A stretch of 24,463 bases of DNA from a virus. The translations under genes were made by a program, and so were the position numbers. Below are positions 7,884 through 22,752 of this stretch, in pieces. The stretch covers positions 1 to 24,463 of the IMG/VR virus record IMGVR_UViG_3300010885_081949; one strand, written 5' to 3'. The notes under the pieces are model-generated. The model did no database searches and had not been told where the DNA came from. It worked only from the letters and a program-made list of their open reading frames with translations. The number at the start of each line of letters is the position of its first letter. The first letter of the stretch is position 1.

Positions 7884-8267
7884 TCAGACAGAGAGGAGGG
7901 TCTGCTTCACGGCTGTGAGCCGCTTCCACTCGGGGCGGGCAACGTTCTCGAGCCACCGCTTCGCGAGGGCGAGGGAGTGCTTGCACTCCCCTGCGCGCCC
8001 GTGGTCAAAGCAGGTGCAGGTGGTCTTCACGCGAGCACCGTTCCACTCCGCGGTCACGTTGTAGGTCGAAGACCCGCCCGCGGAACGCACCGTGGCGCGA
8101 ACCTCCCCGCTCTTCCCCTCGGTGGCCCAGATCACCTGGACCCCGTTGGCGCGGGTACGGCGACCGATCTCGCCCCCGTCGTAGGTGGCGCGCATCGCGC
8201 CACCCTTCACGCGGAGTTCGTCAAGAGCCTCGTTCACCGAATCAAGAATGGCGTGAGTACGAACCAT
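7884..8267 (-). CDS. Small SWIM zinc-finger protein
   Basis: This 127-residue protein starts at ATG 8267 with GGAGG five bases upstream; the GTG at 8270 is too close to the SD. The C-terminal part holds C84-T-C86, then C95-K-H97, the CxC...CxH arrangement of SWIM zinc fingers, which bind nucleic acid or protein in plant, archaeal and bacterial proteins. Residues 1-80 may form a small beta-rich domain with an Arg/Gly-rich section (GGEIGRRTRANG). It is the last gene of the minus-strand block and looks more GC-rich than its neighbours. Its start region lies in a potential hairpin (see 8270-8288). A role as a DNA-binding accessory of the modification genes, or a regulator, is plausible but unproven. 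Confidence 0.75.
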   Translation of the reverse strand: MVRTHAILDSVNEALDELRVKGGAMRATYDGGEIGRRTRANGVQVIWATEGKSGEVRATVRSAGGSSTYNVTAEWNGARVKTTCTCFDHGRAGECKHSLALAKRWLENVARPEWKRLTAVKQTLLSV

Positions 8268-8269
8268 CA

Positions 8270-8288
8270 CTACCTCCTATAGAGGTAG
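8270..8288 (-). promoter_or_regulatory. Inverted repeat covering the SD of the SWIM gene
   Basis: On the minus strand the sequence is CTACCTC, a five-base loop TATAG, then GAGGTAG, a perfect 7-bp inverted repeat. The right arm includes most of the SD (GGAGG) of the SWIM gene. In RNA this hairpin could hide the ribosome binding site; in DNA it could be an operator. The TATAG loop could also be part of a -10 element. All functions are inferred. Confidence 0.45.
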
Positions 8289-8316
8289 AACGCGCTTCTG
8301 ACCCGAAAGGAAACCC

Positions 8317-9456
8317 CTATTCCTTTAGAAGATTGAAGAGCACCGAGTTCTCTTCCTCTTCTTCCCTCAGCTTCTTTGCGCGAACATCATGCAGAGCTCT
8401 GGAATTCACGCCGGATTCTGAGCTCTTCCACTCTTCATACTTCTTATCTTCCTCTTCCTGGGTTCCGCAGCGAACAAGGTCCACGCGGCAGTAGCAGACA
8501 AAAGAGATTCTTTCCCAGTCTTCCGCACCTTCTACTTCTGAGACCTGCTCTGTGTTCCCGTGCCATTCGTGGACGTCCATTGCAAGAAAGTCTCCGGTCC
8601 GCACGTTTGCAGCCACCCGGAACTTTGGGAAGACTGTATGCCCCCCTCGGTACTTGTCCTCCCCGCCCTCTACGACGGTCAGGTTTCCGAAACCTTTCCC
8701 GTAGTCCCCCGCATCTCTGTGGACGGCGGTCTGAAAGTTCTTGTTTACCGTGACAGTGGTAAAGGCTGTGTCCCCAAGAGCCCAGCCATTACCCGAGATC
8801 TTTTTACTGACCATGAAATCCCGCTGAGCTTTCCATCTATTCGGGGCGACTTTCTGGAAGTTCTTGCTCACTTCTTCGACAAAGGGCATCGCCTGAAGGA
8901 AGAGCTCCGGGTTGCTCTTCGTATAAGAGGTCTGTCTGCAGTAGGGGTTCCTAGGATTAGACCCGAAGTTTCCGACAATCCCGCTCAGAACTGGGTTTGC
9001 TTCCGTCGTTTCAGACATCACCCCGTCTTCTGAGATGTACTTGAACCTCGTACCAGAAACCTGGATTATTCTTTCGGCGGGTCTGGAGAGCTTTGATAGG
9101 TCTACTTTTCCTGCAGCCATTCCTCGGTTCTTGGAAGAACCCGCAGCTTCCCTCAAGCCTTCGTGCGCCTTCCGACAGATGTCATCCGGGATTATCTTCT
9201 TTCTGAACGCCAGAAGAAGTCGCGCATCGAGATCATCTTCCCCGAAAAGCTCTTCCATCTCTTCGCGAGGCTTGTAGACGTTTGCATCTTCTTCCAAGAG
9301 AACCTCATAGTGAGACTCGTCTAGGAATAAAGACCCAAGAGCGTCAACCTCATGGTCTTTCAGGAGGCCCTCTCCGGTGAGCTCGATCATACGAATGTTG
9401 TCCTGGTGCCATTCGTACCAGGACAACCCGTTCTTCTCTTTGCGCTCTTTCTTCAT
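8317..9456 (-). CDS. TET/JBP-like 2-oxoglutarate/Fe(II) dioxygenase
   Basis: A 379-residue protein. I choose ATG 9456, with GAGGAA upstream, over the longer in-frame start at 9561, which would run into the preceding gene. The C-terminal double-stranded beta-helix has H246-R-D248 and a distal H299 (HEWHGNTE), the HxD...H iron triad. R316 in the following ERISFV strand is a good candidate for 2-oxoglutarate binding. The motifs GNLTVVEGG, YRGGHTVFPKF and GDFLAMDVHEWHGN match the TET/JBP branch, which oxidises the 5-methyl of 5mC or thymine in DNA; phage members are known to work in cytosine hypermodification. The N-terminal 200 residues are charged and not recognised. It lies among genes for kinase, transferase, glycosyltransferase and inositol-phosphate synthesis, supporting a DNA-modification role. 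The base oxidised is unknown. A generic prolyl-hydroxylase-like enzyme is the main alternative. Confidence 0.8.
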   Translation of the reverse strand: MKKERKEKNGLSWYEWHQDNIRMIELTGEGLLKDHEVDALGSLFLDESHYEVLLEEDANVYKPREEMEELFGEDDLDARLLLAFRKKIIPDDICRKAHEGLREAAGSSKNRGMAAGKVDLSKLSRPAERIIQVSGTRFKYISEDGVMSETTEANPVLSGIVGNFGSNPRNPYCRQTSYTKSNPELFLQAMPFVEEVSKNFQKVAPNRWKAQRDFMVSKKISGNGWALGDTAFTTVTVNKNFQTAVHRDAGDYGKGFGNLTVVEGGEDKYRGGHTVFPKFRVAANVRTGDFLAMDVHEWHGNTEQVSEVEGAEDWERISFVCYCRVDLVRCGTQEEEDKKYEEWKSSESGVNSRALHDVRAKKLREEEEENSVLFNLLKE

Positions 9457-9475
9457 GGTGTATTCCTCAGCGCAC

Positions 9476-9484
9476 ACTATACCA
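9476..9484 (-). promoter_or_regulatory. Possible extended -10 promoter for the dioxygenase gene
   Basis: The 41-base gap between the inositol-phosphate synthase stop and the dioxygenase start contains, on the minus strand, TGGTATAGT: an extended -10 TG followed by TATAGT (five of six matches to TATAAT). No convincing -35 box was seen at 17 bases. This could give the dioxygenase and SWIM genes their own transcript. Confidence is low because phage promoters may not follow the host consensus. Confidence 0.35.
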
Positions 9485-9497
9485 TGAAATGCGGACC

Positions 9498-10661
9498 CTA
9501 TCCCGGAAGGTTGTGCTTCTTCAGGGAGTCGGTCAGGAGTCTCTTCGAGAGAGCCTCGCATTCGGCGTGTGCGTCCTGAATCATCATCTGATTCGGGGGC
9601 GTCTTCTGCGTAGACGCCGAGGGTCCGCGAAGAGATCCAACGAGACCCATCTCGCGAGCGACCTGCAGGTATCGGATTGCGTCGATGACGACGCCAGCCG
9701 AATTCGGAGAGTCCTGCACTGAAAGACGGGCATCAAAGATAACGGGTGCGCCGCCGAAGCCTTCCGCCTCAATGCGAAAGTGCGCAACCTTGTTGTCGCC
9801 GTGGTAAGCGATATACGAGGAGGGTCCCGCATAGATTCCATTCTTCGGAACCGCGATACCGCGGAGATCGTTCTGGGAACGAATCACGTTCTCCTTCGAG
9901 ATCTTCTTCGAGGCAAGGCGGGACTGATCCATCATGTTGAGGAAGTCCGTGTTGCCACCGTGGTTCGTCTGCGAGTGGAACAGAACCTTCATCCCTCGGT
10001 TGAAGAAGAGCTCCTGAAGAGCCTGCGAAAGAACGCTGGCTCCAAGCTGGGAGCGCATGTCATCTCCGATCGCCGGGATGCCCGCCTCCTTCAGCTTCCC
10101 CTCCCAGAAGGGGTCCGAAACGATGAAGACCGGGATGCAGTTCACAAAGGGAACCTTCGCCTTCAGGCAGGCCTGCACATAGAAGCGAGTCGCTTCCTCC
10201 GAGCCGACCGGAAGGTAGTTCAGAAGGACGTCGATCTTGTTGTCGACGAGATCCCGCACGAGCTCCTCAATGGTAGGTTCTGGATCCTTTGTCACGCGGA
10301 ACGACTCGTCTTCCGTGTGTGTGAGCATGTGAGGGGCGACACCATCAAGGAGCTTTCCACGACGAACCTCGCAAGAACCCTCGATGACTTCATCGAGCCA
10401 AGCGCGGGATTCTTCGGTCTTCAGGATGTCCATCGCGCAGTTCGGCTTTGCCCAGAGAGCCTTCTTCAGGGGTCGGCCAACCTTACGGGTGTCGATGTCA
10501 TAGGCAAGCACAAACTTGATGTGCTTCGCCTCATACCCGCCGATATCGGCGAACGCAAGACCGTCCTTCTGATTCGTGTGGGAATAGAGGGCGACGCCCT
10601 CAACCAGCGACTTTGCGCAGTTTCCTGCACCTGCAATCGCAACTCTGATTTCGCTCTTCAT
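9498..10661 (-). CDS. ino1: Myo-inositol-1-phosphate synthase
   Basis: This 387-residue enzyme starts at ATG 10661, after GGAGAG. It converts D-glucose 6-phosphate to 1L-myo-inositol 1-phosphate in an NAD-dependent isomerisation. The N-terminal Rossmann motif is GAGNCAKSL (residues 11-19). Also present are LNYLPVGSEEATRFY (148-161), the catalytic-region segments FVNCIPVFIVSDP and GDDMRSQLGASV, NHGGNTDFLNMMDQSRLASK (233-252) and DSPNSAGVVIDAIR (317-330), all typical of the actinobacterial/archaeal short type. Length is close to that of those enzymes. A phage copy may feed an inositol-based DNA decoration given its neighbours; alternatives are supplying host inositol lipids or osmolytes. Family identification is strong; pathway destination is inference. 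Confidence 0.93.
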   Translation of the reverse strand: MKSEIRVAIAGAGNCAKSLVEGVALYSHTNQKDGLAFADIGGYEAKHIKFVLAYDIDTRKVGRPLKKALWAKPNCAMDILKTEESRAWLDEVIEGSCEVRRGKLLDGVAPHMLTHTEDESFRVTKDPEPTIEELVRDLVDNKIDVLLNYLPVGSEEATRFYVQACLKAKVPFVNCIPVFIVSDPFWEGKLKEAGIPAIGDDMRSQLGASVLSQALQELFFNRGMKVLFHSQTNHGGNTDFLNMMDQSRLASKKISKENVIRSQNDLRGIAVPKNGIYAGPSSYIAYHGDNKVAHFRIEAEGFGGAPVIFDARLSVQDSPNSAGVVIDAIRYLQVAREMGLVGSLRGPSASTQKTPPNQMMIQDAHAECEALSKRLLTDSLKKHNLPG

Positions 10662-10683
10662 CTTCTCTCCGATCTAGTAGGTT

Positions 10684-11229
10684 TTACCCTTCTGGGTTGA
10701 CTTCTGAACTCTTCAAGCGGATCTCATCGAGGATCTGCTCGGCGGTTGTTTTCCTGAGGTCATATAGGATGCCTCTTCCACCTGCGCTACAGAACTCTTC
10801 GATGTTTTTCGGGTGGTCGTCAATAAGTACGGATTCTTTGCGAGCATAGAGAGCCTTCTGCTCGCAGTTTGTGACCCCATTGAATCTTGAGATGACGCCG
10901 TTCTTGAAAAGCTCCCCGTAATGCTTCTGCAGCCATAGTTGCTTTCCTGTATGGGCTTGAATTCCCATGTCGGAGGAGTCCCTTACTCCATAAGAGGTGA
11001 GGATCTCTATCTGGTGCCCTGCATCTTTCAGGTCCTTGATGAGCTTTTTCATCTCCTCAATTCTTGAGGGCGGAAGCTCTTCGAAGAGCTTTGTCCCATA
11101 ATGGGTATAGAGGATCTCTTCTCTGAGAGACTTGTCTTCGTAGATTCTCTTCTCAGAGAACCCAGAGATCTTGCTCAGGTAGAGGTTCATGTCGGTGAGA
11201 ACCCCATCCATATCAAAGTAGACTACCAC
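10684..11229 (-). CDS. HAD-superfamily phosphatase
   Basis: This 181-residue protein uses a GTG start at 11229. The only later Met (residue 7) would cut through the active site, so GTG is needed; AAGGGG lies upstream. HAD motif I is D6-M-D8-G-V, motif II is LTS (T78-S79), a Lys for motif III is near residue 125 and motif IV is D137-D138 in LIDDHPKN. These fit the small 5'-nucleotidase/polynucleotide 3'-phosphatase-like HAD group, which removes phosphate from nucleotides or sugars. In this operon it could dephosphorylate inositol-1-phosphate, a sugar phosphate or a phosphorylated hydroxymethyl base. The gap to the downstream synthase gene is 22 bases. Superfamily assignment is firm; substrate is unknown. 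Confidence 0.83.
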   Translation of the reverse strand: MVVYFDMDGVLTDMNLYLSKISGFSEKRIYEDKSLREEILYTHYGTKLFEELPPSRIEEMKKLIKDLKDAGHQIEILTSYGVRDSSDMGIQAHTGKQLWLQKHYGELFKNGVISRFNGVTNCEQKALYARKESVLIDDHPKNIEEFCSAGGRGILYDLRKTTAEQILDEIRLKSSEVNPEG

Positions 11230-11251
11230 TTCGCGTTCCCCTTCTATCCAG

Positions 11252-11278
11252 GATATACTCGTGTTCTGGAGAATTCAA
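11252..11278 (-). promoter_or_regulatory. Possible promoter in the GT-HAD gap
   Basis: The 55-base gap holds, on the minus strand, TTGAAT (11278-11273), a 15-base spacer, then TATATC (11257-11252). Each hexamer matches the sigma-70 consensus at four of six positions, but the spacing is short. The surrounding GAGTATATC also occurs at 24431-24439 next to the terminal palindrome, so a phage-specific promoter element is possible. Confidence 0.25.
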
Positions 11279-11284
11279 CCTTGG

Positions 11285-12487
11285 TTAGCCGAACATTCCA
11301 AGAACGTCCTCTGAAGTCTCTGCGGGCTTTGAGGCCTGAACTCTCTCCCACCTCTTGATGGTTTCTTCTAGGAGACTTTCAAGACGGGCGAGCCCCGCCT
11401 TCGGATTGTAGTAATCCCAGGTCTCGTCTAGAATCTTCTGCCTCTCCTCGTCCGAGGGTGTCTCGTAGGAAAGAAGGAATTCCCTGATTCCCTCCTTCCC
11501 AAGCTCGTGTGGGATCACAACGATTCCCCCAACATGAGAAGAGGGCGCGCAAGCCTCCTTGATGGGGTGGTCCTCGATCTTGTGGGATAGAATGACCGGA
11601 ATGCCTTGGATGTTTGCCTCAACCGCGGTGAGCCCAAAGCTCTCTTGCGCAAAGCAAAGAAGAGCCTTTGAGGTTGCGATCTCCTCTTCTAGGATCTCAT
11701 CAGAAACTCCGGTCGCGTTTATCCTCTCCGAACCAAACTTCTTCACGAGCTTTTCGTAGAGTTCTTTCTGATCCGGGTGGTCTGGAGGAGGGCAGAAGAG
11801 ACGCAGGTCATCTGCTGCAAAGAGACTGATGTGATGTCTCTTTGTCGGGATTATCCTTCCGATCGTGATAAAGCCCTTCTTTGCGGGCTTCAGGATCGGC
11901 TTCTTCCAGGTGATCGCATGATGGAACCAATGAGTGAAGATGGCGTCTTCTGATAGAATGTCCTCTTCAGGAATTCCGCTTGAGATGAGAAACTTCTTGC
12001 TCTTTCTTGAGAGCTGAAGCCACTCTCTCCTTGAGGAAGCGGCGACGCAAACTGTCGCGTGCCCCTCCTTTGCCATCTTGTAAAGAGTGCCTATGTAGGA
12101 AAGGGCGGATATCCCTCCGGCCATGCCTACATGGGAGTGAACAAAGTTCACGCAAGGCCGAAGCGGCGTGAGGATTCTGTTCAAGGAAGAGTTGTCTGAG
12201 TCATGGCAGATGACCACGTCGGGTTCAACTCTTTTGATGATGTCTCGGACGATCTGATTTCTTTCTTTCGCAAAAATCGGCTTTCCAGAGTGCCTACTTG
12301 CACCAACTCGATGTGTCTTCACCTCTGGATAGGGCGGGTCTTCGCTATCGTCGTTCGTCAAGAAGTGAACCTCGTGGCCGGCATCTTTCAGAAGGATGAT
12401 CTGGTTTGCCTCGACCTTCTCTGCGCCCCCGCGAACTTTTCCTACAAGATAGGGGTTCCATCTTGCTCCGACGATGACGATCTTCAT
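11285..12487 (-). CDS. GT-B family glycosyltransferase (GT4-like)
   Basis: This 400-residue protein starts at ATG 12487, overlapping the methyltransferase stop (ATGA). The N-terminal Rossmann domain begins MKIVIVGARWNP and has the GG-containing loop typical of GT4 enzymes (KVRGGAEKVEA). The C-terminal nucleotide-sugar domain shows GRIIPTKRHH (R211, K216 as likely phosphate contacts) and the E-x7-E motif E282...E290 in QESFGLTAVEA. GT4 enzymes transfer a sugar from a nucleotide donor with retention. In this cluster the acceptor is plausibly a modified base in DNA, as for T4 glucosyltransferases, but host or virion glycans cannot be excluded. The C-terminus ends in DVLGMFG, matching a tail in the transferase-like protein encoded upstream. 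Family call is good; donor and acceptor are unknown. Confidence 0.85.
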   Translation of the reverse strand: MKIVIVGARWNPYLVGKVRGGAEKVEANQIILLKDAGHEVHFLTNDDSEDPPYPEVKTHRVGASRHSGKPIFAKERNQIVRDIIKRVEPDVVICHDSDNSSLNRILTPLRPCVNFVHSHVGMAGGISALSYIGTLYKMAKEGHATVCVAASSRREWLQLSRKSKKFLISSGIPEEDILSEDAIFTHWFHHAITWKKPILKPAKKGFITIGRIIPTKRHHISLFAADDLRLFCPPPDHPDQKELYEKLVKKFGSERINATGVSDEILEEEIATSKALLCFAQESFGLTAVEANIQGIPVILSHKIEDHPIKEACAPSSHVGGIVVIPHELGKEGIREFLLSYETPSDEERQKILDETWDYYNPKAGLARLESLLEETIKRWERVQASKPAETSEDVLGMFG

Positions 12488-13065
12488 GCTTTCACCTTTC
12501 TCCAGATGAGAACTTCTCTTCTTCTCGGCTTCCAGTCTTGGAGAACCTGCTCTACTTTTGCCCCGTAGTCATGGTGGAAGGGCTTTCTTCCATACTTGAT
12601 CGGGGCATACTGCTTCTTGAAGCTCCTTTCTTCGGAGTCTGAAACCGCATTTATTGTGCAGAGGACGTCATCCTCTTCAAGAGAGCCGATGATCTGTTCC
12701 ATCCAGGTCTCTACTTCAGAGGTCTCCCAATGCTGAAGCACGTCCTTGATGAAGAAGAACTTTGGCCCTTCAGGGATGTGCCTCTTCCACTCTTCTATCT
12801 CAAGTATGTTGCAGACGAGATTTGGTCCGCAATCCTCGACAATGTCAATGCCAAAATAGCGTTCGCTTTCGGTAAACGCCTCAGGAAGCCAGTTCTTCTT
12901 ATCGTTGCATCCAAGATCAATGAAGACGCGCTCACCCACGAGAGGCTCGAGCTTCTCTAGCAGATCTTTACAATACTTCTTTGTGCTTCCTGCGCCAGCT
13001 TTTGGGTACTTCCCTGAACGGGCCCAACGATTGGACTTCCAGATCTGCTCAAAAACCTCTTTCAT
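12484..13065 (-). CDS. Class I SAM-dependent methyltransferase
   Basis: I start this at ATG 13065 with GAGG six bases upstream, one base after the preceding stop, giving 193 residues; an in-frame start at 13116 would overlap the upstream gene. Motif I is FIDLGCNDKKNW and the acidic strand is YFGIDIVED, consistent with SAM binding, followed by FFIKDVLQHWETSEVE around motif IV. There is no DPPY/NPPY or PC-ENV signature of DNA base methyltransferases, so a small-molecule or sugar methyltransferase is more likely. It could methylate the transferred sugar/polyol. The stop overlaps the glycosyltransferase start (ATGA), which suggests coupled expression. The substrate cannot be named. Confidence 0.78.
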   Translation of the reverse strand: MKEVFEQIWKSNRWARSGKYPKAGAGSTKKYCKDLLEKLEPLVGERVFIDLGCNDKKNWLPEAFTESERYFGIDIVEDCGPNLVCNILEIEEWKRHIPEGPKFFFIKDVLQHWETSEVETWMEQIIGSLEEDDVLCTINAVSDSEERSFKKQYAPIKYGRKPFHHDYGAKVEQVLQDWKPRRREVLIWRKVKA

Positions 13066-13066
13066 G

Positions 13067-13900
13067 TTAGCCTCGTTTGTAGTCGTCTTCAAGTCTGATG
13101 ACGTCTTGAAGATCATTGGTTGAAACCTCTACGAGAGTGCAGGAACCTCCATTCGTCGCTCCGAATCGATGAACCTGCCCCGGCTTCACATGAAAGGTTT
13201 GACCTGGCCCGAGGATAATCTCTTCGGAACCGCCCTGAACCTTCAGGCTCCCAGAAAGAACGAGGACGGTTTCCTCCTTTCTTTCGTGGTATTGAAGGGA
13301 TAGACGATGCCCGCTCTCAATGTGAATGACCTTTCCAGCGTAGGGGGCGTCTGTCGGGCTCCACCAAACTTCAAACCCCCAAGGCTTCTCTTTCAGAGAT
13401 CCTTCCCACTTCTTCGAAAGATTCTCTTTTAGCAGAGAGGAAGAAGCCTGCACCTTTCCGCCGCCTACACCAAAGACGACCTCGCACCCTATTTCAGCGC
13501 AGATCTCGAACTCAGGAACCTTGCTGCTCCTGTAGTCGCCCCCTACGTCACCGCCCTCAGTTCTATCTCCACCCTTTGTGAAGAAGATGGGGCTGAGGGC
13601 TCTTATTGCCCCGCTTACGGTCGGACCCCCATCATCCCATTCGACGACGTAGTCCACTCCCGCAAGACCCGCAATGATCTCCATCCGCTCTTCACAGTTC
13701 ATGAACGGACGACCCTTCTTTCTTGAGAGCCATCCATCTCCGTTTACGATGACGGCGAGCTTGCACTGATTCTTTCTTGCAAGCTCTGCGCTCTCTTGAA
13801 TACAACGAAGATGGCCGACGTGGATCGGATCAAACCCGCCGGAGGTTGCCACAAGGCGTTCAGACTTTAGATCTTCAAGAGTTCTGACGATCTTTCCCAT
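13067..13900 (-). CDS. Nucleotidyltransferase-cupin fusion
   Basis: This 277-residue protein starts at ATG 13900 with AGGAGG upstream. Residues 15-160 form a HIGH-type nucleotidyltransferase: GGFDPIHVGHLR contains H27-V-G-H30, as in cytidylyl- and adenylyltransferases of the glycerol-phosphate or heptose-phosphate kind; the usual C-terminal ISSxxxR signature is only loosely represented by QASSSLLKEN. Residues 170-270 form a cupin like the isomerase half of mannose-6-phosphate isomerase/GDP-mannose pyrophosphorylase enzymes (EKPWGFEVWW, then GHRLSLQYHERKEE). In this operon it could activate a sugar or polyol phosphate, for example inositol-1-phosphate, to a nucleotide donor. That specificity is inference. 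This pairing of NT class and cupin is unusual to me. Confidence 0.82.
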   Translation of the reverse strand: MGKIVRTLEDLKSERLVATSGGFDPIHVGHLRCIQESAELARKNQCKLAVIVNGDGWLSRKKGRPFMNCEERMEIIAGLAGVDYVVEWDDGGPTVSGAIRALSPIFFTKGGDRTEGGDVGGDYRSSKVPEFEICAEIGCEVVFGVGGGKVQASSSLLKENLSKKWEGSLKEKPWGFEVWWSPTDAPYAGKVIHIESGHRLSLQYHERKEETVLVLSGSLKVQGGSEEIILGPGQTFHVKPGQVHRFGATNGGSCTLVEVSTNDLQDVIRLEDDYKRG

Positions 13901-13913
13901 GACTTCCTCCTGG

Positions 13914-15104
13914 TTACCCGAACATACTCATGGCGTCGATCTTTTCTTCCTTCTTGTCAAGAAGGTTCTGGACCAGCCGCTCTACTTCTCCCTCTCTTCC
14001 GGGCTGAATGAGCATCTCTCTCTTAAGATCGAGCTCCTTCGACATGTTTGGTAGATCTGGGTAGATGTTATCCATGTTGATCGGCTGCCCTGTTCCCTTG
14101 AAGAGGGGGAACAGGGCCTTTGACTCTCTATGCCATCGAATGTTCTCGAACATGTTGCTGCTGTTCACAGCATCTGCAAAAGCAGAGTAGTCAACTTCGG
14201 GCCAAGCGTTTGAGAACTCGTAGTACCTTGTGACCGCATCCCCGACGTTTTGGCCCGGATAGTCATATCCGACGTTGAGCTTCTTGAACTGACAAAGATG
14301 GGTCTCAAGCGTGAAGTAGGACAAGAACTCTCTATTCTGAACCGCTTCCTTTGCTTGGGCCATGAGATCCTTCTCAAAGGCCAGGAACCTTGTTCTGTCG
14401 GCGGCTGTTGGCTTGTACCCAGCAAACTTTGGCTGGTCCCCAACAGTCAGGTTCTCGATTCCCATAAGATAGCACATGCCATTCCACACGGAGACGTTCC
14501 CCGTGTCTTCTATGTGCATCGTGTCTGGCTCGATGGGAAGTTTCGCACACTCATAGAGGCATTGAGCTGCGATCCATGAGGTCATCCTTCCAAACTTTTC
14601 CCAAGATCGGATCTGTGCTGTTATGTTGTGGTATGACTTGTTCTGATCATCTTCGATGAACTTGTCAAACGCCGCCTCTATGTCTCCCTTTCCTTCCTTT
14701 TCGACCCACTGTATAAAGGAAGACCACATCTTCACAACGTGGCCCTTGTTGTAGCGGGTGTCCGTCGCAAACTTCTGTCGCGGCATCGTTTCGCGATTCC
14801 ACTTGTCAAGATCAGCCATGTTGATAGCCATGGGGTCTTGAAAGTGCCAGTAGAACGTCCAAGCCATAGAGCTCTGGTACGTTGTTCCAAACAGATAGCT
14901 GTACCACAGCTTCTGCTTCCTTGTCATCGGCTTTCCAGTCGGTGACTTCTTTGTGTTCATGTACGCCAGATTCCAGGCGTAGTGATCTATGTTCTTGCCC
15001 AGAAGTCGCCAGTTGAACCAGCGAAAGAAGAGTTCCTTTCGGTTTTCTGGAAGTCTCCAGTCTACCCACTTCTTGTCAGCGTTGTCGGGGTGAAGAAACT
15101 TCAT
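13914..15104 (-). CDS. Amino acid:DNA transferase-like protein (aGPT-Pplase group)
   Basis: This 396-residue protein starts at ATG 15104, overlapping the kinase stop by four bases (ATGA). It is strikingly Trp-rich. Segments such as FFRWFNWRLLGKNIDHYAWN, WYSYLFGTTYQSSMAW, WNRETMPRQKFATDTRYN and the following KGHVVKMWSSF recall phage proteins described as alpha-glutamyl/putrescinyl thymine pyrophosphorylases, later reinterpreted as amino acid:DNA transferases in thymidine hypermodification. Those enzymes act on a pyrophosphorylated 5-hydroxymethyl pyrimidine made by a DNA kinase, and a P-loop kinase is encoded immediately upstream. I assign the family from recalled motif similarity, not a search. 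The C-terminus ends DAMSMFG, resembling the glycosyltransferase tail. If the family is wrong, the gene remains an unknown conserved phage protein. Confidence 0.6.
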   Translation of the reverse strand: MKFLHPDNADKKWVDWRLPENRKELFFRWFNWRLLGKNIDHYAWNLAYMNTKKSPTGKPMTRKQKLWYSYLFGTTYQSSMAWTFYWHFQDPMAINMADLDKWNRETMPRQKFATDTRYNKGHVVKMWSSFIQWVEKEGKGDIEAAFDKFIEDDQNKSYHNITAQIRSWEKFGRMTSWIAAQCLYECAKLPIEPDTMHIEDTGNVSVWNGMCYLMGIENLTVGDQPKFAGYKPTAADRTRFLAFEKDLMAQAKEAVQNREFLSYFTLETHLCQFKKLNVGYDYPGQNVGDAVTRYYEFSNAWPEVDYSAFADAVNSSNMFENIRWHRESKALFPLFKGTGQPINMDNIYPDLPNMSKELDLKREMLIQPGREGEVERLVQNLLDKKEEKIDAMSMFG

Positions 15105-15673
15105 CGAACGCCTCGGAGGATCTCTCCGATCTGAACCGGAGTCTTGTTGTCGGTGTTCACGACAACAAGCTCTGCGTCAAGATCGGAACCCTCGTCACCG
15201 AACATGTCAAGATCGTTCTCGTTCTTGAACATCTCTGCAAAGCGTTGCGCCTTCGTCTCACGGCCCTTCATCCAGGTCTCGTTCTGGTCTGAGCCACGCT
15301 TATCACGCCGCTCCTTCAACTTTTCTGGAGAGGCCGTCAGAAGGACGCAACGAAGAGAGACCCCCGCCTCGCGAAGAGCTGTGAAGATCTTCGAGGTGGA
15401 GAATCGATCCCCGTCCCATACCGACATCTTGAACTTCTTCCCCGGTAGTACGTTCTCCTTCCAGTAGTTGAAGCAGTCCTCTGCTCCGTCATAGGGAACC
15501 GTGTCCCCACCGTCAAAGGTTCCCTTTCCGTAGTGTCCGACTAGGGCTACGTCCTTTCCAAGGGTCCACTTCGGGCTCTCTACGAGCTCGTACTCAGAAC
15601 CCAAAAGCTCTTTCAGGGCCGAAGTTTTTCCAACACCGGGGGCACCGACGACAAAGAGGGCGACGTGAGGCAT
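15101..15673 (-). CDS. P-loop kinase, likely 5-hydroxymethyl-pyrimidine DNA kinase
   Basis: I choose ATG 15673 (AAGGAG six bases upstream) over the in-frame start at 15718, giving 190 residues. Walker A is G10-APGVGK-T17. A mid-protein segment, GHYGKGTFDGGDTVPYDG (47-64), and WDGDRFSTSK (86-95) resemble phage kinases linked to base hypermodification, where 5-hydroxymethyl-dU in DNA is phosphorylated before substitution. The Arg-rich segment EKLKERRDKRGSDQN is the likely lid. Residues 154-160 read DLDMFGD, related to tails found in two downstream enzymes. It is the first gene of the minus-strand operon. A kinase is near-certain; the DNA substrate is inferred from motif resemblance and from the adjacent transferase-like gene. 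Confidence 0.72.
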   Translation of the reverse strand: MPHVALFVVGAPGVGKTSALKELLGSEYELVESPKWTLGKDVALVGHYGKGTFDGGDTVPYDGAEDCFNYWKENVLPGKKFKMSVWDGDRFSTSKIFTALREAGVSLRCVLLTASPEKLKERRDKRGSDQNETWMKGRETKAQRFAEMFKNENDLDMFGDEGSDLDAELVVVNTDNKTPVQIGEILRGVR

Positions 15674-15751: not shown

Positions 15752-18628
15752 ATGGCCGTCCCGAAAAAGTACGAGCACATCGACTTCAAGCCTCCGAAGG
15801 GCGTCGCTGCCGAGGCTGAGAAGGGCTTGAAGTACCGGGAACGCTCCGGCAAGGGCGGCTTGTCCTCGCAAGAGGCTGGAGAGTCCGGGATCGGTTCTGG
15901 GGTTCAGAGAGCGGTGAACCTGAAGAACCAGACCAACATCGCCCCGGAAACGATCCAGCAGATGCTGAACTTCTTCTCACGGAGCGAGAAGAATAAGTCG
16001 GTATCGGCAGAAAACCGCGATACTCCTTGGGAGGACGCGGGCCATGTGGCTTGGCTACTCTGGGGCGGCGATGCCGGGAAGAAGTGGGCTGAAGGAGTCA
16101 AGGATAAGATGGACAAGGCTGATGAGGAAGAGAAGGCTCAATCCAAAAAGGCTTCTGACTTGAACTCCCTCGGGTACGGGGCTCTCTCCTCCTCCTACAA
16201 GGCGGTCTCAGAAACCCTTTCTCCTGAGTTCCCGATCGACCTAGACAAGCTCACGATTGAAGAGCCCCCGCTGAATATGAGCCCCCAGACCCGAGAAGAG
16301 CTCGAGCACCTCCTCTATCTGCAGCAGGACGTTCGGCCCTATCTTCTTGGAAGAGTTCAGGCCTCTAACGACGACCCTCTGATTCATGTAAAGGAGTACT
16401 GTCTCGAGAACGGACTCCCCGTTGACTCCGAGGCTTACCATCTGAGCCAGGAGCTCAGACCTCTCATCATGAAGTTGAAGCGGTTCTACGATAGACCACG
16501 ACCCTACCAGCTCGCACCCCTGCACGGGATGCCTGATTTCTCTCCACTTGAGCTGAAGACTACAGGTACGCCCTCCTATCCGAGCGGCCACACCATGCAG
16601 GCTTTCATCGGGGCTCTCTATCTAGCGGACAAGTTCCCTGAGCATAGAGAAGCTCTTCTCCAGTCCGCTCGGAAGACATCCCTTGATAGAATGATCGCGG
16701 GCGTCCACTTTCCCTCAGACGTGATCTTCGGGGAAGTCATGGCGAAGGATATCTACGCGGGCCGTTCTGTTGGGAGATTGAAGCAGGCCTGCGTTATCGC
16801 GGCGGGAACTTTCGGTGATTCCTATTGCCTCTTCAAGAACCGCGACCGGAACTACATCCCTGAAGTCTCTCTCATTCACGAGATCCGGGGCGGGGTAGAG
16901 GTTCTCTATCTGAAGGACGACGTCACGGGCTGGACCGAGGGCATGAACGCTCTCGGTATTGGCATAGTGAACTCGGCCCTCATGGTCGCACGTGATGAGA
17001 CTGAGTATGAGCTTATCCAGAAGGGGCAGGTTCTTCCTGACGGGGAGATCATCCTTGAAGCTCTCACTCGGAGAAACGTCCTTGAGGCCGCACATGTCGT
17101 TCGGCATTACAAGGGCGGTCTTCTCGGCCATACTGTGGTCTCAGACGGGAAGCGTTCCTACTATGTAGAGCTCCCGGACGAGGACAAGGTTGCTTTTAAC
17201 GAGCTCTCCGTCGGGCGTCTCTTCACTCGAACCAATCACGGCGTGAAGTTCAAGAACACGGGCTACACGGTTGAGGACAGATATCGGGCTTCGGTTGAAC
17301 GGAGATTGAAGTCTCTCACGGTCCTTCGAGAGGTCGAATCCCCAGAAGAGCTCGCGCCCGATCTTATGCGGTCACGCGACGTTCGGGTTCACCTCCATGA
17401 AGTGATTCAGGACTCTCGCTCAAAGAAGCGGATGCGGACTACCTCTCAGATGGTCCTTGACCTTACAAACAAGGAGCTCTTTCTCTACCTGTTCCCCGAG
17501 CGGGTGAGCTGGAAGGGGTACAAGAACAAGCTCCCCGAGGGCTACAAGCCTCAGATCAGATTCCGGGTCGAGGAGTACAAAGATATCTCCCTGAATGGTG
17601 ACGGGCAGACTATCCCCATAAAGGCTTCCCCAGTGCGGGTTGCTGCCCGCTACAAAGAGAAGAAGAAGGTTCCGAAGGCCGACGGGTCGGGTGAGACCAC
17701 TATCTACGTCTATTCCGAAAGACAGCTTCAGAACCGACACCGCGAGAAGGCCGAAAGGCTTCAGAAGTTCGCGCCCAAACTAGAAGACCTGAGAGCCTCT
17801 CTGAAGAAGGACCTTGACTCTGAAGACCCTGAGACCTTTCTCACCGCGCTTGCTATCTCTCTAATCGACGCTACTTATGAGAGAGTTGGCAACGATGGGT
17901 CCGCAGAGAACGGCCACTATGGTGTGACGGGCTGGCTGAAGAAGCACGTCACAATAAAGAATGACAAGGCGATCATTCGCTACGTCGGAAAGTCCGGCGT
18001 GAAGCAAGAGAAGCGCGTTGATGATGACTCTCTTGTGAAAGCTCTGAAGCGTTGTTGCGGAGACAAAGACCCAGACGAACCTATTCTCTCACTTGAAGAT
18101 GCTCAGGTCAGTTCTAAAGAGGTGAACGCCTATCTGAAGCCCTACGGGATCACCGCCAAGGATCTGCGCGGACTTCACGCAAACCGCGAGATGCAGGAGA
18201 GACTAGAGGAGATCCGAAAGAAGGGTCCAAAGCTCCCTCGTCTTCGCAAGGAGCGCGATAAGATCTTGAAGGCAGAGTTCAAGGAGGCTCTAGAGGCCGC
18301 AGCCGAAGCGGTCGGCCATGAGCCTGCGACTCTGAGGGGACAGTATCTTGTTCCTGCACTTGAAGATTTCTACATGAAGGACGGCACCATCATTAAGAAC
18401 CTGAAGGGTGCCACAAAGACTGAGAGTCAGCGTGAGGAAGAGCACGCTGAGCATCTGATAAAGCCTTCTCCAAAGAAGAAGCCACCTCGTGAAGATCTGA
18501 AGAAGCGTCGTATGGACGAGAGCTCTTCTGACCCTGACAAGAAGCAGGATTCAAAGGATCGTTCTCAGAACTACAAGGATGCTGCTCTCCGGGTAGCCTC
18601 TCGTTGGCTCTTCAAGGAGCTCAAGTGA
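15752..18628 (+). CDS. Multidomain fusion: phage domain, PAP2 phosphatase, Ntn-hydrolase, topoisomerase IB
   Basis: A 958-residue protein starting at ATG 15752 (AGGA upstream). Residues 30-115 match a phage domain with GIGSGVQRA, MLNFFSRSEKNK and WLLWGGDAGKKWA. Residues 170-335 form a PAP2-type phosphatase: KX6RP near 241-251, PSGH at 277-280 and R313...H319...D323. Residues 347-530 look like an Ntn-hydrolase of the C45/choloylglycine kind, with candidate nucleophile C347 and FKNRDRNY and TGWTEGMNALGIGIVN downstream. Residues 545-900 are topoisomerase IB with the full apparent catalytic set R711, K747, R806, H856 and Tyr865 (GHEPATLRGQY). A basic linker and RVASRWLFKEL end the protein. The stop overlaps the next start. 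Location in the head module suggests an enzyme packaged in the virion and perhaps cleaved into parts; that is inference. Domain calls rest on motifs; the Ntn part is least certain. Confidence 0.85.
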   Translation: MAVPKKYEHIDFKPPKGVAAEAEKGLKYRERSGKGGLSSQEAGESGIGSGVQRAVNLKNQTNIAPETIQQMLNFFSRSEKNKSVSAENRDTPWEDAGHVAWLLWGGDAGKKWAEGVKDKMDKADEEEKAQSKKASDLNSLGYGALSSSYKAVSETLSPEFPIDLDKLTIEEPPLNMSPQTREELEHLLYLQQDVRPYLLGRVQASNDDPLIHVKEYCLENGLPVDSEAYHLSQELRPLIMKLKRFYDRPRPYQLAPLHGMPDFSPLELKTTGTPSYPSGHTMQAFIGALYLADKFPEHREALLQSARKTSLDRMIAGVHFPSDVIFGEVMAKDIYAGRSVGRLKQACVIAAGTFGDSYCLFKNRDRNYIPEVSLIHEIRGGVEVLYLKDDVTGWTEGMNALGIGIVNSALMVARDETEYELIQKGQVLPDGEIILEALTRRNVLEAAHVVRHYKGGLLGHTVVSDGKRSYYVELPDEDKVAFNELSVGRLFTRTNHGVKFKNTGYTVEDRYRASVERRLKSLTVLREVESPEELAPDLMRSRDVRVHLHEVIQDSRSKKRMRTTSQMVLDLTNKELFLYLFPERVSWKGYKNKLPEGYKPQIRFRVEEYKDISLNGDGQTIPIKASPVRVAARYKEKKKVPKADGSGETTIYVYSERQLQNRHREKAERLQKFAPKLEDLRASLKKDLDSEDPETFLTALAISLIDATYERVGNDGSAENGHYGVTGWLKKHVTIKNDKAIIRYVGKSGVKQEKRVDDDSLVKALKRCCGDKDPDEPILSLEDAQVSSKEVNAYLKPYGITAKDLRGLHANREMQERLEEIRKKGPKLPRLRKERDKILKAEFKEALEAAAEAVGHEPATLRGQYLVPALEDFYMKDGTIIKNLKGATKTESQREEEHAEHLIKPSPKKKPPREDLKKRRMDESSSDPDKKQDSKDRSQNYKDAALRVASRWLFKELK

Positions 18629-20787
18629 ACCGCGATCTCCAGATAAGAGTAGCGGCGCGCTGGCTCTTCTCGCAGGGGGAGAGTCCGGAAGATCGCCTGA
18701 AGGCGCGTGCGAAAAAGGAATATGACGCCTACAAGGAAGAGCACCCAAAGACGGAGCTCACCGAGCAGGACTTCCTCGAGCGACTGAAAGAAGATGGGGT
18801 CACGGGTGATTCCTCTGAAACAGACGACGCGAAAAAGAAGAGGAAAGAGAAACTTACTCAGGCAGACAAGGATAAGAAGGACGCGGCTACGAAAGAAGCC
18901 ATGACCGCCCTTGAGGGAAAGTGGAAAGAAGCCTTCGATAATCTTGATCTCACAGATGATAACAAGAAGAAGTTCTCAGATTCCTTGAAGAACTTCGGTC
19001 CGGAGGAAAGAAAGACCTTCATGGGGTCTTTCGATTCCTCTTTGAAGAGCCTGAAGAGCGGGTCTGCCTCATATGACCCGGACAAGACCGCTTCCCTTAT
19101 GAAGAGCCTTAAGAAAGGTGTTCAGGGGGCAGACCCCTCTCGTCTCGGCTCTCTTGCCGCGGAGGCAGTCTTCGCGGATCGCATCGCACTCAACCCGGAG
19201 ATGCTCTCTGCGGGTGATCCGGTCTCGGGACCTGACGATGAAGGCTCCGGTTCTGAGGCTTCTGATATTCAGAAGGCATCAAAGAGATCCTCACTTGCTC
19301 TCGCACGCTTTGAGAAAGCCTCAAAGGAGGAGCTGGAAGAGTTCTCGAAGAGACTGGACTCTATGATAGACGAGGCTCCCGCGGATTCTCCTCGTCAGAA
19401 GGAGCTTATGGCTACGCGCCACGGGCTGAATCTCGCACAAGCACTGAAGGGCGATTCTGATGAGCCTCCCGAAGGTGTTGCGCCTCTTGAGTTTCTCTGC
19501 CTGAAGGCTCTAAAGAAGAAGGGAACCAGTATCCTTCCTCTAGCAGAGCTCTCCTACAGATCCTCGTCGCGCGACGAGAGCTCTTCGGCTTCTATGGCGC
19601 AGGAGATCGGTTCTGCCATCGAGAACATGGATATGTCGGAAGTTATGCGAATTCTCCCGACAGAATATCAGTCTCTTGGAGCTTCGGCCCTAGAAACCGC
19701 GATCGCAAACGCCACTAATCTTGATTCCCAGGGCAATGAGATCTCAGGCGATAACCGGAATAAGAAGCGGCTTCTTGAAGCAAAGGCGCAGCTTGAGAAA
19801 GAGATGAAACAGTCTATCGTTGACCTTATCACTCAAGAAGCCTCGAAAAAGGTAAAAGGCGAGCCCACTCCTATGCCTGAGGCACCCACCTATAAGGTGA
19901 AAGGCAACAAGGGCGGCTCGATTTCTGACTGGTTTGACGATCTCAGAGAGTCTCTATTCGGAAAGTCCGCAGCAATAGCCTCCCTATACGAGAAGCATAC
20001 AGGTGAGGCTTGCTCTATGCAAGCCTATCGCCCCTTTTCCTCAAGGAGACCACTGATGTCAAAGCTCACTCGTCAAGGGGCGCGTAATCTGACCGCCGCG
20101 CTTGATCGTATCGCTCAGACCCTTCAGAGCCGTCACGACCTTCTGGGCGTTGACAAGAAGATCGCGACGGACTTCGCCTATCGCTGCGATCTTCTGTCGG
20201 ATGCGATCGAGCGCACCGCCTCTGCAAACTTCCCCCTCTCCCGCGAGGCTGCGGCGAAGGGCGTGGACGACGAGGGTCTGTCCGTAGACCACGGCGAGAG
20301 CGGCTTTGACGCTAACCTCATCGGTGATGCAGTTCCGGGCCCCCTTGAGATCATCACTCCTCCCAATGAGCCCTGGATGGACGCGCACTTCACCCAGGAG
20401 AACTTCCACGAGCTCGGTGAGCTTCAGGAAGCGGGCGAGCTCGGCCCCGTGAAGCTCGCTTCTATCCTCCACAACCTGAGCGCGGCGACCGCTCTTCTCG
20501 CGAAGTCTGCGAAGAAGTCTCAGGAGAAGGCTCAGGAGTCCCAGCAGGCTCCGAAGGCTCAGCAGAAGGCGAAGGCTCAGCAGAAGGCTCAGGAAGCCCA
20601 GGAGCAGGAGCAGGAGGCTCAGGAGCAGGAGCAGGAGCAGGAAGCTCAGCAGGCTCCGAAGGCCCAGCAGAAGGCGAAGGCCCAGCAGTCCCAGAAGGGG
20701 CAGCAGGCTCCGAAGGCTCAGCAGTCCCAGAAGGCCAAGAAGGCTTTCGATCAGTCTAACGACTGGGGCTTCAACCTCACCGAGTGA
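18625..20787 (+). CDS. Probable internal head/core protein with Gln/Ala-rich C-terminus
   Basis: I choose GTG 18625, overlapping the previous stop (GTGA) with AAGGAG six bases upstream, giving 720 residues. The N-terminus, LQIRVAARWLFSQG, nearly repeats the C-terminal peptide of the preceding protein. Residues 25-480 are charged, Lys/Glu/Ser-rich and probably helical or disordered. Residues 478-720 could also be made separately from ATG 20056. The last 85 residues are a low-complexity array of Ala, Gln, Lys and Glu units (QQAPKAQQKAKAQQ, EAQEQEQE). No enzyme motif is visible. Its place just upstream of the protease and scaffold-like genes suggests a head core or internal virion protein. This is inference from context and composition. 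Confidence 0.72.
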   Translation: MNRDLQIRVAARWLFSQGESPEDRLKARAKKEYDAYKEEHPKTELTEQDFLERLKEDGVTGDSSETDDAKKKRKEKLTQADKDKKDAATKEAMTALEGKWKEAFDNLDLTDDNKKKFSDSLKNFGPEERKTFMGSFDSSLKSLKSGSASYDPDKTASLMKSLKKGVQGADPSRLGSLAAEAVFADRIALNPEMLSAGDPVSGPDDEGSGSEASDIQKASKRSSLALARFEKASKEELEEFSKRLDSMIDEAPADSPRQKELMATRHGLNLAQALKGDSDEPPEGVAPLEFLCLKALKKKGTSILPLAELSYRSSSRDESSSASMAQEIGSAIENMDMSEVMRILPTEYQSLGASALETAIANATNLDSQGNEISGDNRNKKRLLEAKAQLEKEMKQSIVDLITQEASKKVKGEPTPMPEAPTYKVKGNKGGSISDWFDDLRESLFGKSAAIASLYEKHTGEACSMQAYRPFSSRRPLMSKLTRQGARNLTAALDRIAQTLQSRHDLLGVDKKIATDFAYRCDLLSDAIERTASANFPLSREAAAKGVDDEGLSVDHGESGFDANLIGDAVPGPLEIITPPNEPWMDAHFTQENFHELGELQEAGELGPVKLASILHNLSAATALLAKSAKKSQEKAQESQQAPKAQQKAKAQQKAQEAQEQEQEAQEQEQEQEAQQAPKAQQKAKAQQSQKGQQAPKAQQSQKAKKAFDQSNDWGFNLTE
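20043..20048 (+). promoter_or_regulatory. Internal ribosome binding site AAGGAG
   Basis: AAGGAG lies seven bases before an in-frame ATG at 20056 within the 720-residue gene. It matches the SD consensus as well as any genuine start in the window, and in the long frame it encodes part of Ser-Arg-Arg using the rarer agg and aga codons. This supports internal initiation. Confidence 0.55.
20056..20787 (+). CDS. Nested product (243 residues) of the 720-residue gene
   Basis: An internal ATG with a strong SD could produce the C-terminal 243 residues as a separate protein, MSKLTRQGARNLTAALDRIA onwards. From here on, Arg codons are cgt or cgc in the first 60 residues, whereas the stretch before uses aga and agg, so codon use changes at the internal start toward that of abundant proteins. 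The product has a helical N-terminal part, an acidic middle (LSVDHGESGFDANLIGDAVP) and a Gln/Ala/Lys/Glu-rich tail. It resembles the scaffold-like protein encoded at 22753 in tail composition. Either both products are made or the frame is a fusion of two formerly separate genes. No family recognised. Confidence 0.5.
   Translation: MSKLTRQGARNLTAALDRIAQTLQSRHDLLGVDKKIATDFAYRCDLLSDAIERTASANFPLSREAAAKGVDDEGLSVDHGESGFDANLIGDAVPGPLEIITPPNEPWMDAHFTQENFHELGELQEAGELGPVKLASILHNLSAATALLAKSAKKSQEKAQESQQAPKAQQKAKAQQKAQEAQEQEQEAQEQEQEQEAQQAPKAQQKAKAQQSQKGQQAPKAQQSQKAKKAFDQSNDWGFNLTE
20517..20745 (+). repeat. Low-complexity Gln/Ala/Lys/Glu coding repeats
   Basis: This stretch is built from imperfect units such as cagcaggctccgaaggctc and caggagcaggagcaggag. 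It encodes QQAPKAQQ and EQEQEAQ blocks. Very similar units recur in the gene at 22753-24363, so the two genes share repeat DNA that could recombine or expand and contract. Confidence 0.8.
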
Positions 20788-21335
20788 GATTCCACTTGAA
20801 GCGCGTCGCACAAAACTATGTCAACTACCAGCAGAGAGCCACCGAGTTCTCTGTTGGTGACGTTGTTGTCCCTTATGGTTACTACGAGAGCCATTCGGGA
20901 AGAGTCGTCGCGCTCTATCCTGGGATCGGCATGGCCGACGTTGAGTTCGCCTCGGGCTCGAAAAGATACCCCGTAGAAGAACTTCAACGCATAAACCCGG
21001 AGACGGGGAGCGCGATCCCTCCTAGAACAAACTCAGTTCCTGGAGGGCTTCCCACCACTACCGTCTCCGGGGGGCCGTTCCCTCAAAAGGAGGCAGCTGT
21101 TCGAGTTGCCTCCTCCTACGTTCGGAACGCCCTCTATTGGTACGGGCCGGACAGAAAGTATCGCCTCACGCGAGTAGAATCCAACGAGGGTTCCTACTAT
21201 TGCCCGAAGTGCGATAAGATCGAGATGAAGAAGACAGTTTACAAGAGAGTTCAGGGGAAGAGCGATAAGCTCCTCGGCTGTCCTTCTTGTCTCTTCCTCA
21301 TCAAAGAGTTCGACATCATCCGGGTCGAGGAGTAA
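20784..21335 (+). CDS. Zinc-ribbon protein with SH3-like N-terminal part
   Basis: This 183-residue protein starts at GTG 20784, overlapping the previous stop (GTGA); no good SD is visible, so translation probably relies on coupling. Residues 20-70 (FSVGDVVVPYGYYESHSG and a following MADVEF strand) resemble a small SH3/KOW-like barrel. Residues 135-180 contain CPKC and CPSC about 30 residues apart, a zinc-ribbon pattern. Between them is KEAAVRVASSYVRNAL, a version of the Arg-Val-Ala-Ser peptide seen elsewhere in this window. The function is unknown; nucleic-acid binding or a head-assembly role are possibilities. The next gene starts 3 bases after its stop. Confidence 0.72.
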   Translation: MRFHLKRVAQNYVNYQQRATEFSVGDVVVPYGYYESHSGRVVALYPGIGMADVEFASGSKRYPVEELQRINPETGSAIPPRTNSVPGGLPTTTVSGGPFPQKEAAVRVASSYVRNALYWYGPDRKYRLTRVESNEGSYYCPKCDKIEMKKTVYKRVQGKSDKLLGCPSCLFLIKEFDIIRVEE

Positions 21336-21338
21336 AGC

Positions 21339-22751
21339 GTGGCTTTTCTGAAGTATGCCCGCGCTCACGTCATGCACCCTCGTACTACGGGGGCGCACTG
21401 GCAGGGCGTACGCAAGGCGGCTTCTTCAGCTCCCGCAAAGAACCTAGTTGCGCAGGCTTCAGAGATCCTCGGTGAGAACTTCTCACCTGACAGGTTTCTC
21501 CTTACGCACTGCACGATTGTGGCCTCGGTTGACACCGATCCTGTCCCGAACGTAAAGCTCGGCTCTGAGAAGGTCGGCTCCAAGGTGATCACCCGTAAGT
21601 GGGCTGACTTCTATATCAAGCCTGACTGCGCTCAGTTCGTGAACAACAACGGTGACTCCTGGTCGCGTGATGTTCTCTTGAAGTCTTATCGCACCTTTAT
21701 CGGGGCGCATAACTTCCTAGAGCATGTTCAGATCGAGGAGCAGTCAAAGGGCCGAATCATCGACGCCGTGGCGCGCGACATCGGTGATTCCCTCTACATT
21801 GACATCCTAGTCGCTACCGATAGAAAGCACGCCCAGCTCGTTTCTGACATTGAGGCCGGAAGACTCGGCACTCTATCAATGGGTTGTACTTGCGAGTTCA
21901 CTCTCTGTTCGCAGTGCGGAAACGTAGCCGTAGATGAGACTGATCTCTGCGATCACATCAAGTATGCCAAACTGAACACCTTCTTTGATGACGGTGGGAA
22001 GAAGAGAATCATCGCCGAGCTCTGCGGGCATACCTCGCATGGAGATACGGGCGGGGTTCGGTTCATTGAGGCTTCCTGGGTAGCGGTTCCGGCATTTGCG
22101 GGAGCGGTGATGCGCAACATCATCGATCCGGCAGCGGTTTCCGCTGAGCTTGGAAAGCAAGCCAACAAGATTCTTTCTTCGCCGCCTCCAGAATGGGGAA
22201 CGGGTGTTCAGAGAGCGGCTTCCCTAGAAAACCGCCTTGGCGGTTTCGGCGAAGAAGAGCCAGCGGCTGAGGCTCCGGCTGAACCCGCACCTCCTCCGCT
22301 TCCCTTCCAGGATATCGAGGATCAACTCTACGAGACCCTTAAGAACAAGGTTCGAGAGAGACTCGAGAAAGATATCTCTTCGGGCAACGTCGAGAAGGCT
22401 CTTGGGACTCCGACTTCTCCTAATGATTCTATAATCCGGGAAGCCCGTCGCCATCATCAGGGAGCCCTCACTGCTCTTCAGAAGGTAGCATCCAATGATG
22501 CCTCTCTAGTAGAGGGTGTCATGGAACTAGACCGTCAGTTTGGCCTAGTTGCTTCTAGTGATGTTTATCGGACTGCGCTCCTCGCGGGCGACCCAGCTCG
22601 GTATCTTTCTCCAGATGAATATCTGCGGGCTTGTCATAAACTTGCACGCAGGGTTCTGTCCCCCGCCGAGGTTCGGGTTGTAGTCCGAGTCGGCAAACTG
22701 CTTTCCCGAAAGGGAAGCACTCTCAACCACCGCAATCGTGAGGAGTACTAA
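21339..22751 (+). CDS. Prohead (capsid maturation) protease-like protein
   Basis: This 470-residue protein starts at GTG 21339 with GAGGAG upstream. Prohead proteases cleave scaffold and capsid proteins during maturation. The likely catalytic His lies in GAHNFLEHVQ (H124 or H129), followed by a SKGRIIDAVARD strand, and the Ser is S180 in TLSMGCTCEF. This order and spacing fit the T4 gp21/herpesvirus-assemblin-like S-type proteases of large phages. Right after the Ser is a Cys-rich insert (CTCEFTLCSQCG, then C and H in LCDHIKYA) that could bind zinc. The C-terminal 200 residues are Pro/Ala/Glu-rich then helical, perhaps a core-assembly region. It lies just upstream of the scaffold-like gene, as in T4. 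Assignment is by motif and order. Confidence 0.75.
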   Translation: MAFLKYARAHVMHPRTTGAHWQGVRKAASSAPAKNLVAQASEILGENFSPDRFLLTHCTIVASVDTDPVPNVKLGSEKVGSKVITRKWADFYIKPDCAQFVNNNGDSWSRDVLLKSYRTFIGAHNFLEHVQIEEQSKGRIIDAVARDIGDSLYIDILVATDRKHAQLVSDIEAGRLGTLSMGCTCEFTLCSQCGNVAVDETDLCDHIKYAKLNTFFDDGGKKRIIAELCGHTSHGDTGGVRFIEASWVAVPAFAGAVMRNIIDPAAVSAELGKQANKILSSPPPEWGTGVQRAASLENRLGGFGEEEPAAEAPAEPAPPPLPFQDIEDQLYETLKNKVRERLEKDISSGNVEKALGTPTSPNDSIIREARRHHQGALTALQKVASNDASLVEGVMELDRQFGLVASSDVYRTALLAGDPARYLSPDEYLRACHKLARRVLSPAEVRVVVRVGKLLSRKGSTLNHRNREEY

Positions 22752-22752
22752 C

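Follow-up and report, generated by a model that had tools for sequence, protein, structure and literature searches.

Phage gene cassettes that pair TET/JBP dioxygenases with inositol synthesis suggest a polyol-hypermodified thymine in viral DNA

Why should a virus keep a gene for making inositol among enzymes that act on DNA? The question is raised by the virus record IMGVR_UViG_3300010885_081949, a fragment of 24,463 bases that we refer to as the window, in which positions 7884-15673 hold nine minus-strand open reading frames set within a region of plus-strand genes that include those for terminase and portal. A preliminary description of this DNA had read the nine genes as a candidate DNA hypermodification operon that combines inositol synthesis with a TET-type dioxygenase and a kinase-transferase pair, and had considered its product unpredictable from sequence. 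All nine reading frames were confirmed, packed tightly and in some cases overlapping, and their families are as named in that description: seven labels have profile support, whereas those of a methyltransferase and a SWIM protein are weak and motif-based. The hypermodification reading was supported by comparison with other viruses, in which the inositol-phosphate synthase gene (INO1) is tied to hypermodification genes, and by the fold of the transferase, which is that of a characterized phage enzyme. Comparison also sharpened the function to a probable thymine substrate, with a chemistry that stays conjectural. On balance, we favor the view that the operon makes a polyol (inositol)-hypermodified thymine in the phage's own DNA, the likely purpose of which is protection from host nucleases.

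The proposed pathway would begin with hydroxylation of the thymine methyl group to give 5-hydroxymethyl-U, carried out by a TET/JBP 2-oxoglutarate/Fe dioxygenase (8317..9456, minus strand, as are all genes of the operon). This predicted thymine hydroxylase on DNA matches Tet_JBP (PF12851) at 3.9e-21, and its iron-ligand motifs HRD and HGNT are conserved in the HxD...H arrangement of that family. A P-loop kinase (15101..15673), predicted to be of the 5-hydroxymethyldeoxyuridine (5-hmdU) DNA kinase type, would then convert 5-hydroxymethyl-U to 5-phosphomethyl-U; it has the Walker A motif GAPGVGKT and matches AAA_33 (1.2e-7), phrog_800 (8.7e-8), and, under that family's cut-off, Ploopntkinase3 (1.5e-5). 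The polyol would come from INO1 (9498..10661), a predicted myo-inositol-1(3)-phosphate synthase expected to turn glucose-6-phosphate into inositol phosphate, with matches to PF01658 (1.5e-24), to TIGR03450 (3.7e-89, under that model's cut-off), and to the structure 1gr0 (5e-78), and with the SKKISK and DSPNSAG catalytic blocks retained. An NT5C-like HAD phosphatase (10684..11229; NT5C, PF06941, 6.8e-8), predicted to be an inositol-phosphate phosphatase or else a deoxynucleotidase, would release free myo-inositol. Finally, the ADDT-like transferase (13914..15104; PF18724, 5.6e-22), predicted from its fold and its place in an INO1-linked clade to be an inositol:DNA transferase on 5-phosphomethyl-dU, would have an inositol hydroxyl displace the base phosphate to give 5-(inosityloxymethyl)-dU, where its known relatives use an amino acid. 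We infer every one of these chemical steps, most of all the use of inositol as nucleophile, from an observed gene set, its conservation, the fold of the transferase, and gene swaps between cassettes. The kinase and transferase steps on 5-hmdU are established in phages M6, ViI, and phi W-14 (PMC6449724), and three components of such a system are found in the window: a hydroxymethyl-forming enzyme (Tet_JBP), a P-loop kinase, and a transferase of the ADDT/PUGT fold. Three starts were placed later than in the longest open reading frames, namely those of the kinase (likely an ATG at 15673, with AAGGAG upstream as Shine-Dalgarno site), the methyltransferase (likely 13065, from where the neighboring gene ends), and the TET enzyme (likely 9456, as judged against the related contig L002).

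Does this set of genes belong together? Loci were collected by searching viral contigs for INO1 and for the transferase, and the preliminary proposal to look for the same gene set in other phages proved productive: a core of TET, ADDT-like transferase, INO1, HAD phosphatase, and kinase recurs, in varying gene order, in some 30 further viral loci as well as in the cultured Caulobacter phage Cr30 (NC_025422). Because the core recurs in so many other viruses, a chance grouping of genes is excluded. Just one of 32 other cassettes has a flanking gene in common with the window; thus, the cassette itself is the shared unit. Cr30, in which all five core genes, INO1 (gp121) among them, lie within about 9 kb, is the only cultured phage with the full core. 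Its TET gene (L023:8709-10037) is annotated as an SNF2 DNA repair protein, and predicted 5-hmdU kinases (L023:17057-17602 in Cr30; gp49 in Pseudomonas phage PaMx11) are named terminase small subunit; these are likely misannotations in the databases.

Do the genes act on DNA at all? Glycosyltransferases, cupins, heptose-type nucleotidyltransferases, and INO1 are known from surface glycan pathways, and the operon has one of each, as would fit a set of genes that serves an envelope or lipid glycan. We looked at the neighbors, within 6 kb, of INO1 at every testable locus, meaning those with at least 2.5 kb of flank on each side (n = 62, all sources). All 62 adjoin a hypermodification gene, which is ADDT-like in 26, a member of the HMUDK_hel-like family c3 in 32, and QueC in four, and a HAD phosphatase gene stands beside INO1 in 59. 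The same holds for the 44 loci found through INO1 only (44/44 with a hypermodification gene; 28 distinct at 90% identity). Because INO1 accompanies such genes in every testable locus and is never away from them, we rejected the surface-glycan role, and the conservation of TET, kinase, and the DNA-glycosylase-fold transferase with INO1 across many viruses makes it more improbable still, to the point that we give it hardly any weight.

What, then, does the transferase attach? The best match in the Protein Data Bank (PDB) to an AlphaFold2 model of the window transferase (predicted local distance difference test score of 95.1) is 8z2m, the 5-phosphomethyl-dU glycinyltransferase PUGT of PaMx11 (Z 16.9, root-mean-square deviation 3.6 Å, 257 residues), and the next class of matches, DNA glycosylases, lies near Z 8. 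The fold alone showed this kinship, as no link to PUGT was detectable by sequence only; viral relatives failed to emerge when the transferase was searched as a single sequence, and an alignment search found none in bacterial genomes. In PaMx11 the genes run gp46 (PUGT), oxidoreductase, acetyltransferase, kinase gp49, gp50, and a thymidylate-synthase homolog. A profile built from the cassette kinases matches gp49, near PUGT, at 2.5e-11, whereas the window kinase sequence alone does not match it (E 0.12). A fold match to PUGT, modeled as it is here, does not by itself fix the nucleophile. If the transferase has kept an amino acid or another amine as its substrate, with inositol or another INO1-made cyclitol joined later, for example by a glycosyltransferase, it would be doing what the characterized family members in the sources examined do, which is to use amino acids or amines (PMC6449724; 8z2m); such a scheme could also draw on the distant kinship of INO1 to a synthase that makes a five-membered cyclitol phosphate. 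However, amidotransferase, amidoligase, or GNAT genes, which are the expectation for an amino-acid adduct, occur in 29 of 30 INO1-less TET-transferase-kinase cassettes and in none of the 22 INO1 cassettes (16 of which have glycosyltransferase or FkbM methyltransferase genes), and INO1 and HAD are constant partners while the glycosyltransferases vary between cassettes. We consider the amine scheme unlikely.

The transferase tree separates the same groups. INO1-linked transferases form one side of a single branch (32 rows, in all bootstrap trees), with 41 INO1-less relatives from metagenomic cassettes and four cultured-phage references on the opposite side, and two positions, R33/S and M174/Y, split the sampled INO1 and INO1-less groups completely (24 vs. 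7). Inositol is the likely nucleophile because amino-acid tailoring genes are absent from the INO1 cassettes, because these two positions divide the groups, and because INO1 and HAD persist.

Which base receives it? Three loci inside the INO1 clade (L046, L056, and L113) have a PF00303 thymidylate-synthase-like hydroxymethylase, and TET was not found in them; two (L046 and L113) also carry PF18723, the helical domain of 5-hmdU kinases, and all three retain INO1 and HAD although the upstream step differs. This replacement of TET points to a 5-hmdU intermediate, and the substrate of the operon is probably thymine. The same decoration might instead be placed on cytosine, with TET oxidizing 5-methylcytosine to 5-hydroxymethylcytosine before the kinase and transferase attach inositol. 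Characterized phage TET enzymes reportedly act on 5-methylcytosine, and a family of TET-associated glycosyltransferases (TAGT) is found in cassettes of the Cr30 type. A cytosine substrate is disfavored, and to our minds quite unlikely, given that searches of Cr30 and of three relatives sized 131-173 kb (G001, G002, and G003) gave no C5-cytosine methyltransferase (PF00145), that the TET-less loci have a thymidylate-synthase-like enzyme, and that the transferase fold matches an enzyme of 5-phosphomethyl-dU. As a separate observation, Dcm-like PF00145 proteins occur in c3 cassettes (cluster c13; L020:14955-16169 and relatives), and a pattern search did not find the PCQ-type catalytic motif in them.

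Is inositol confined to thymine? The INO1 tree has about 10 context switches, at least five of them forced by well-supported branches; thus, one module has moved between different base chemistries. Some members of the c3 family contain PF18723, and the best match of the c3 model is also PUGT, at a weak Z of 10.3 that helical proteins can reach by chance; sequence comparison alone detected no link between the c3 and ADDT-like families. At a further set of loci (Stenotrophomonas phage Mendera, L024:11998-16621; L124, L131, L133, and L134) INO1 and the HAD phosphatase stand beside QueC-like genes, in an arrangement that resembles 7-deazaguanine pathways and suggests a third base chemistry using inositol. 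In 19 Aeromonas T4-like phage records a c3 relative occurs together with an SGLT-type sodium symporter gene, and INO1 was not found in any of them. In Aeromonas phage 44RR2.8t (L181:6307-10287, ORF234c-ORF233c), for instance, relatives of families c2 and c3 are fused in a protein of 795 residues that adjoins the symporter gene, and the solved structures closest to the symporter are named sodium/glucose cotransporters. Possibly these phages import a polyol or sugar rather than synthesizing it. We tentatively put forward, as a broader idea that may well not hold, that inositol is a general phage DNA decoration for which a mobile INO1 and phosphatase module feeds three base chemistries, with the Aeromonas T4-like phages importing the polyol through the symporter. 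The three would be 5-hydroxymethyl-U with ADDT-like transferases, a 5-hydroxymethyl pyrimidine with HMUDK_hel-like transferases, and 7-deazaguanine in a QueC-containing pathway.

Several points weigh against inositol on thymine as the product of the window operon. INO1 has among its relatives a synthase of a five-membered cyclitol phosphate (6k96), and INO1 also occurs with 7-deazaguanine genes, so its tie to the ADDT-like transferase is not exclusive. The split into INO1 and INO1-less clades is a single event on the tree, and the counts of linked genes and their Fisher p-values therefore overstate independence. One row inside the INO1-linked clade (L042) has no INO1; this clade member, L042/L055, has HAD and kinase genes, but INO1 was not found in the 109 kb of L055, and neither TET, nor PF00303, nor a symporter that might have explained the missing INO1 was found in the two contigs (89 and 109 kb). 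The HMUDK helical domain PF18723 matched none of the window operon proteins and was not found in the complete Cr30 genome. The window is only a 24-kb fragment, and a cytosine methyltransferase could lie elsewhere in the genome. Further, we found no DNA analysis or enzyme assay for any INO1-bearing member.

What might the remaining genes of the operon contribute? An HldE/RfaE-type nucleotidyltransferase-cupin fusion (13067..13900; CTP_transf_like 2.2e-10, Cupin_2 4e-12, TIGR02199 2.8e-18 and under cut-off; motif GGFDPIHVGH) probably makes a nucleotide-sugar donor. Were it instead to activate inositol phosphate to a nucleotide-inositol, from which phospho-inositol would be transferred, the presence of a CTP_transf_like enzyme in the operon would be explained, as would a separate CTP_transf_like gene about 10 kb from INO1 in the Mendera genome. 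However, relatives of the window nucleotidyltransferase domain were not found in other cassettes, the window copy is closest to an HldE/RfaE adenylyltransferase model, and the HAD phosphatases are nearly constant, all of which leaves this route very unlikely. The GT4-type (GT-B) glycosyltransferase (11285..12487; Glyco_transf_4 3.4e-10), with homologs in cassettes L002, L030, L039, L049, and L052, is predicted to add a sugar to the base or to the inositol attached to it, and would do so with the donor supplied by the nucleotidyltransferase-cupin. A putative class I S-adenosylmethionine methyltransferase (12484..13065), weakly assigned to tailoring by the motif FIDLGCN only, perhaps adds further decoration; the profile search of operon proteins gave it no Pfam family at significance, and in a structure search its best PDB matches were mostly methyltransferases (E about 0.7). 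The SWIM-like zinc-finger protein (7884..8270; motif CTCFDHGRAGECKH) had no convincing Pfam match in the profile search and has relatives in no other cassette; we dropped it as a conserved part of the system, and the gene may not belong to it. Elsewhere in the window, a single 958-residue protein (15752-18628) combines PAP2 phosphatase and type IB topoisomerase domains, and a head maturation protease-like gene lies between two large proteins that contain long QEQEAQ / QQAPKAQQ repeats of low complexity (18604-24363).

What would follow if the pathway were correct? A base carrying a polyol would add a new chemical class to the known DNA modifications; it would be the product of a new activity, inositol:DNA transferase, and would explain the INO1 genes of phages, which the phage records examined annotate without linking them to DNA. 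The expected nucleoside before glycosylation would be C16H24N2O11, with a calculated mass of 420.138 Da that is isobaric with glucosyl-hmdU (base J), and a nucleoside of this mass found in phage DNA would not by itself point to glucosyl-hmdU. No report of inositol in phage DNA appears in the literature searched, and an earlier prediction in key hypermodification papers (Iyer 2013; Lee 2018; Lee 2022; Burke 2021) is possible. The cultured phage Cr30 makes the idea testable.

How does the operon compare with known systems? We read it as a probable polyol form of phage thymidine hypermodification. The thymidine systems of Pseudomonas phages M6 and PaMx11, Salmonella phage ViI, and Delftia phage phi W-14 likewise use 5-hydroxymethyl-U, a DNA kinase, and a transferase of the same fold, and the gene set of PaMx11 gp46-gp51 is parallel to that of the operon. 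In contrast to these systems, the window operon has TET in place of the deoxyuridine monophosphate hydroxymethylase, and INO1, HAD, and a glycosyltransferase in place of amino-acid tailoring genes; the HMUDK_hel helical protein was found neither in the operon nor in Cr30. In the sources examined, phage thymidine hypermodifications carry amino acids or polyamines. Phage TET/C5-cytosine systems likewise pair Tet_JBP with DNA-modifying partners, and TAGT occurs in sister cassettes; however, the operon has a kinase and an ADDT-like transferase, and the C5-cytosine methyltransferase was not found in Cr30 or G001-G003. Cr30 itself differs from the window in having a TAGT-like protein in place of the GT4 enzyme and, as a gene of its own, a cupin-type protein annotated as cysteine dioxygenase, and none of its cassette genes is annotated as DNA modification. 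A last parallel is base J of kinetoplastids, which is glucosyl-hmdU produced by JBP together with a glucosyltransferase. Its synthesis proceeds without a kinase-transferase step and without inositol, but both routes would start with TET/JBP oxidation of T and go on to add a C6H12O6 unit, and the predicted inositol adduct would have the same mass as base J.

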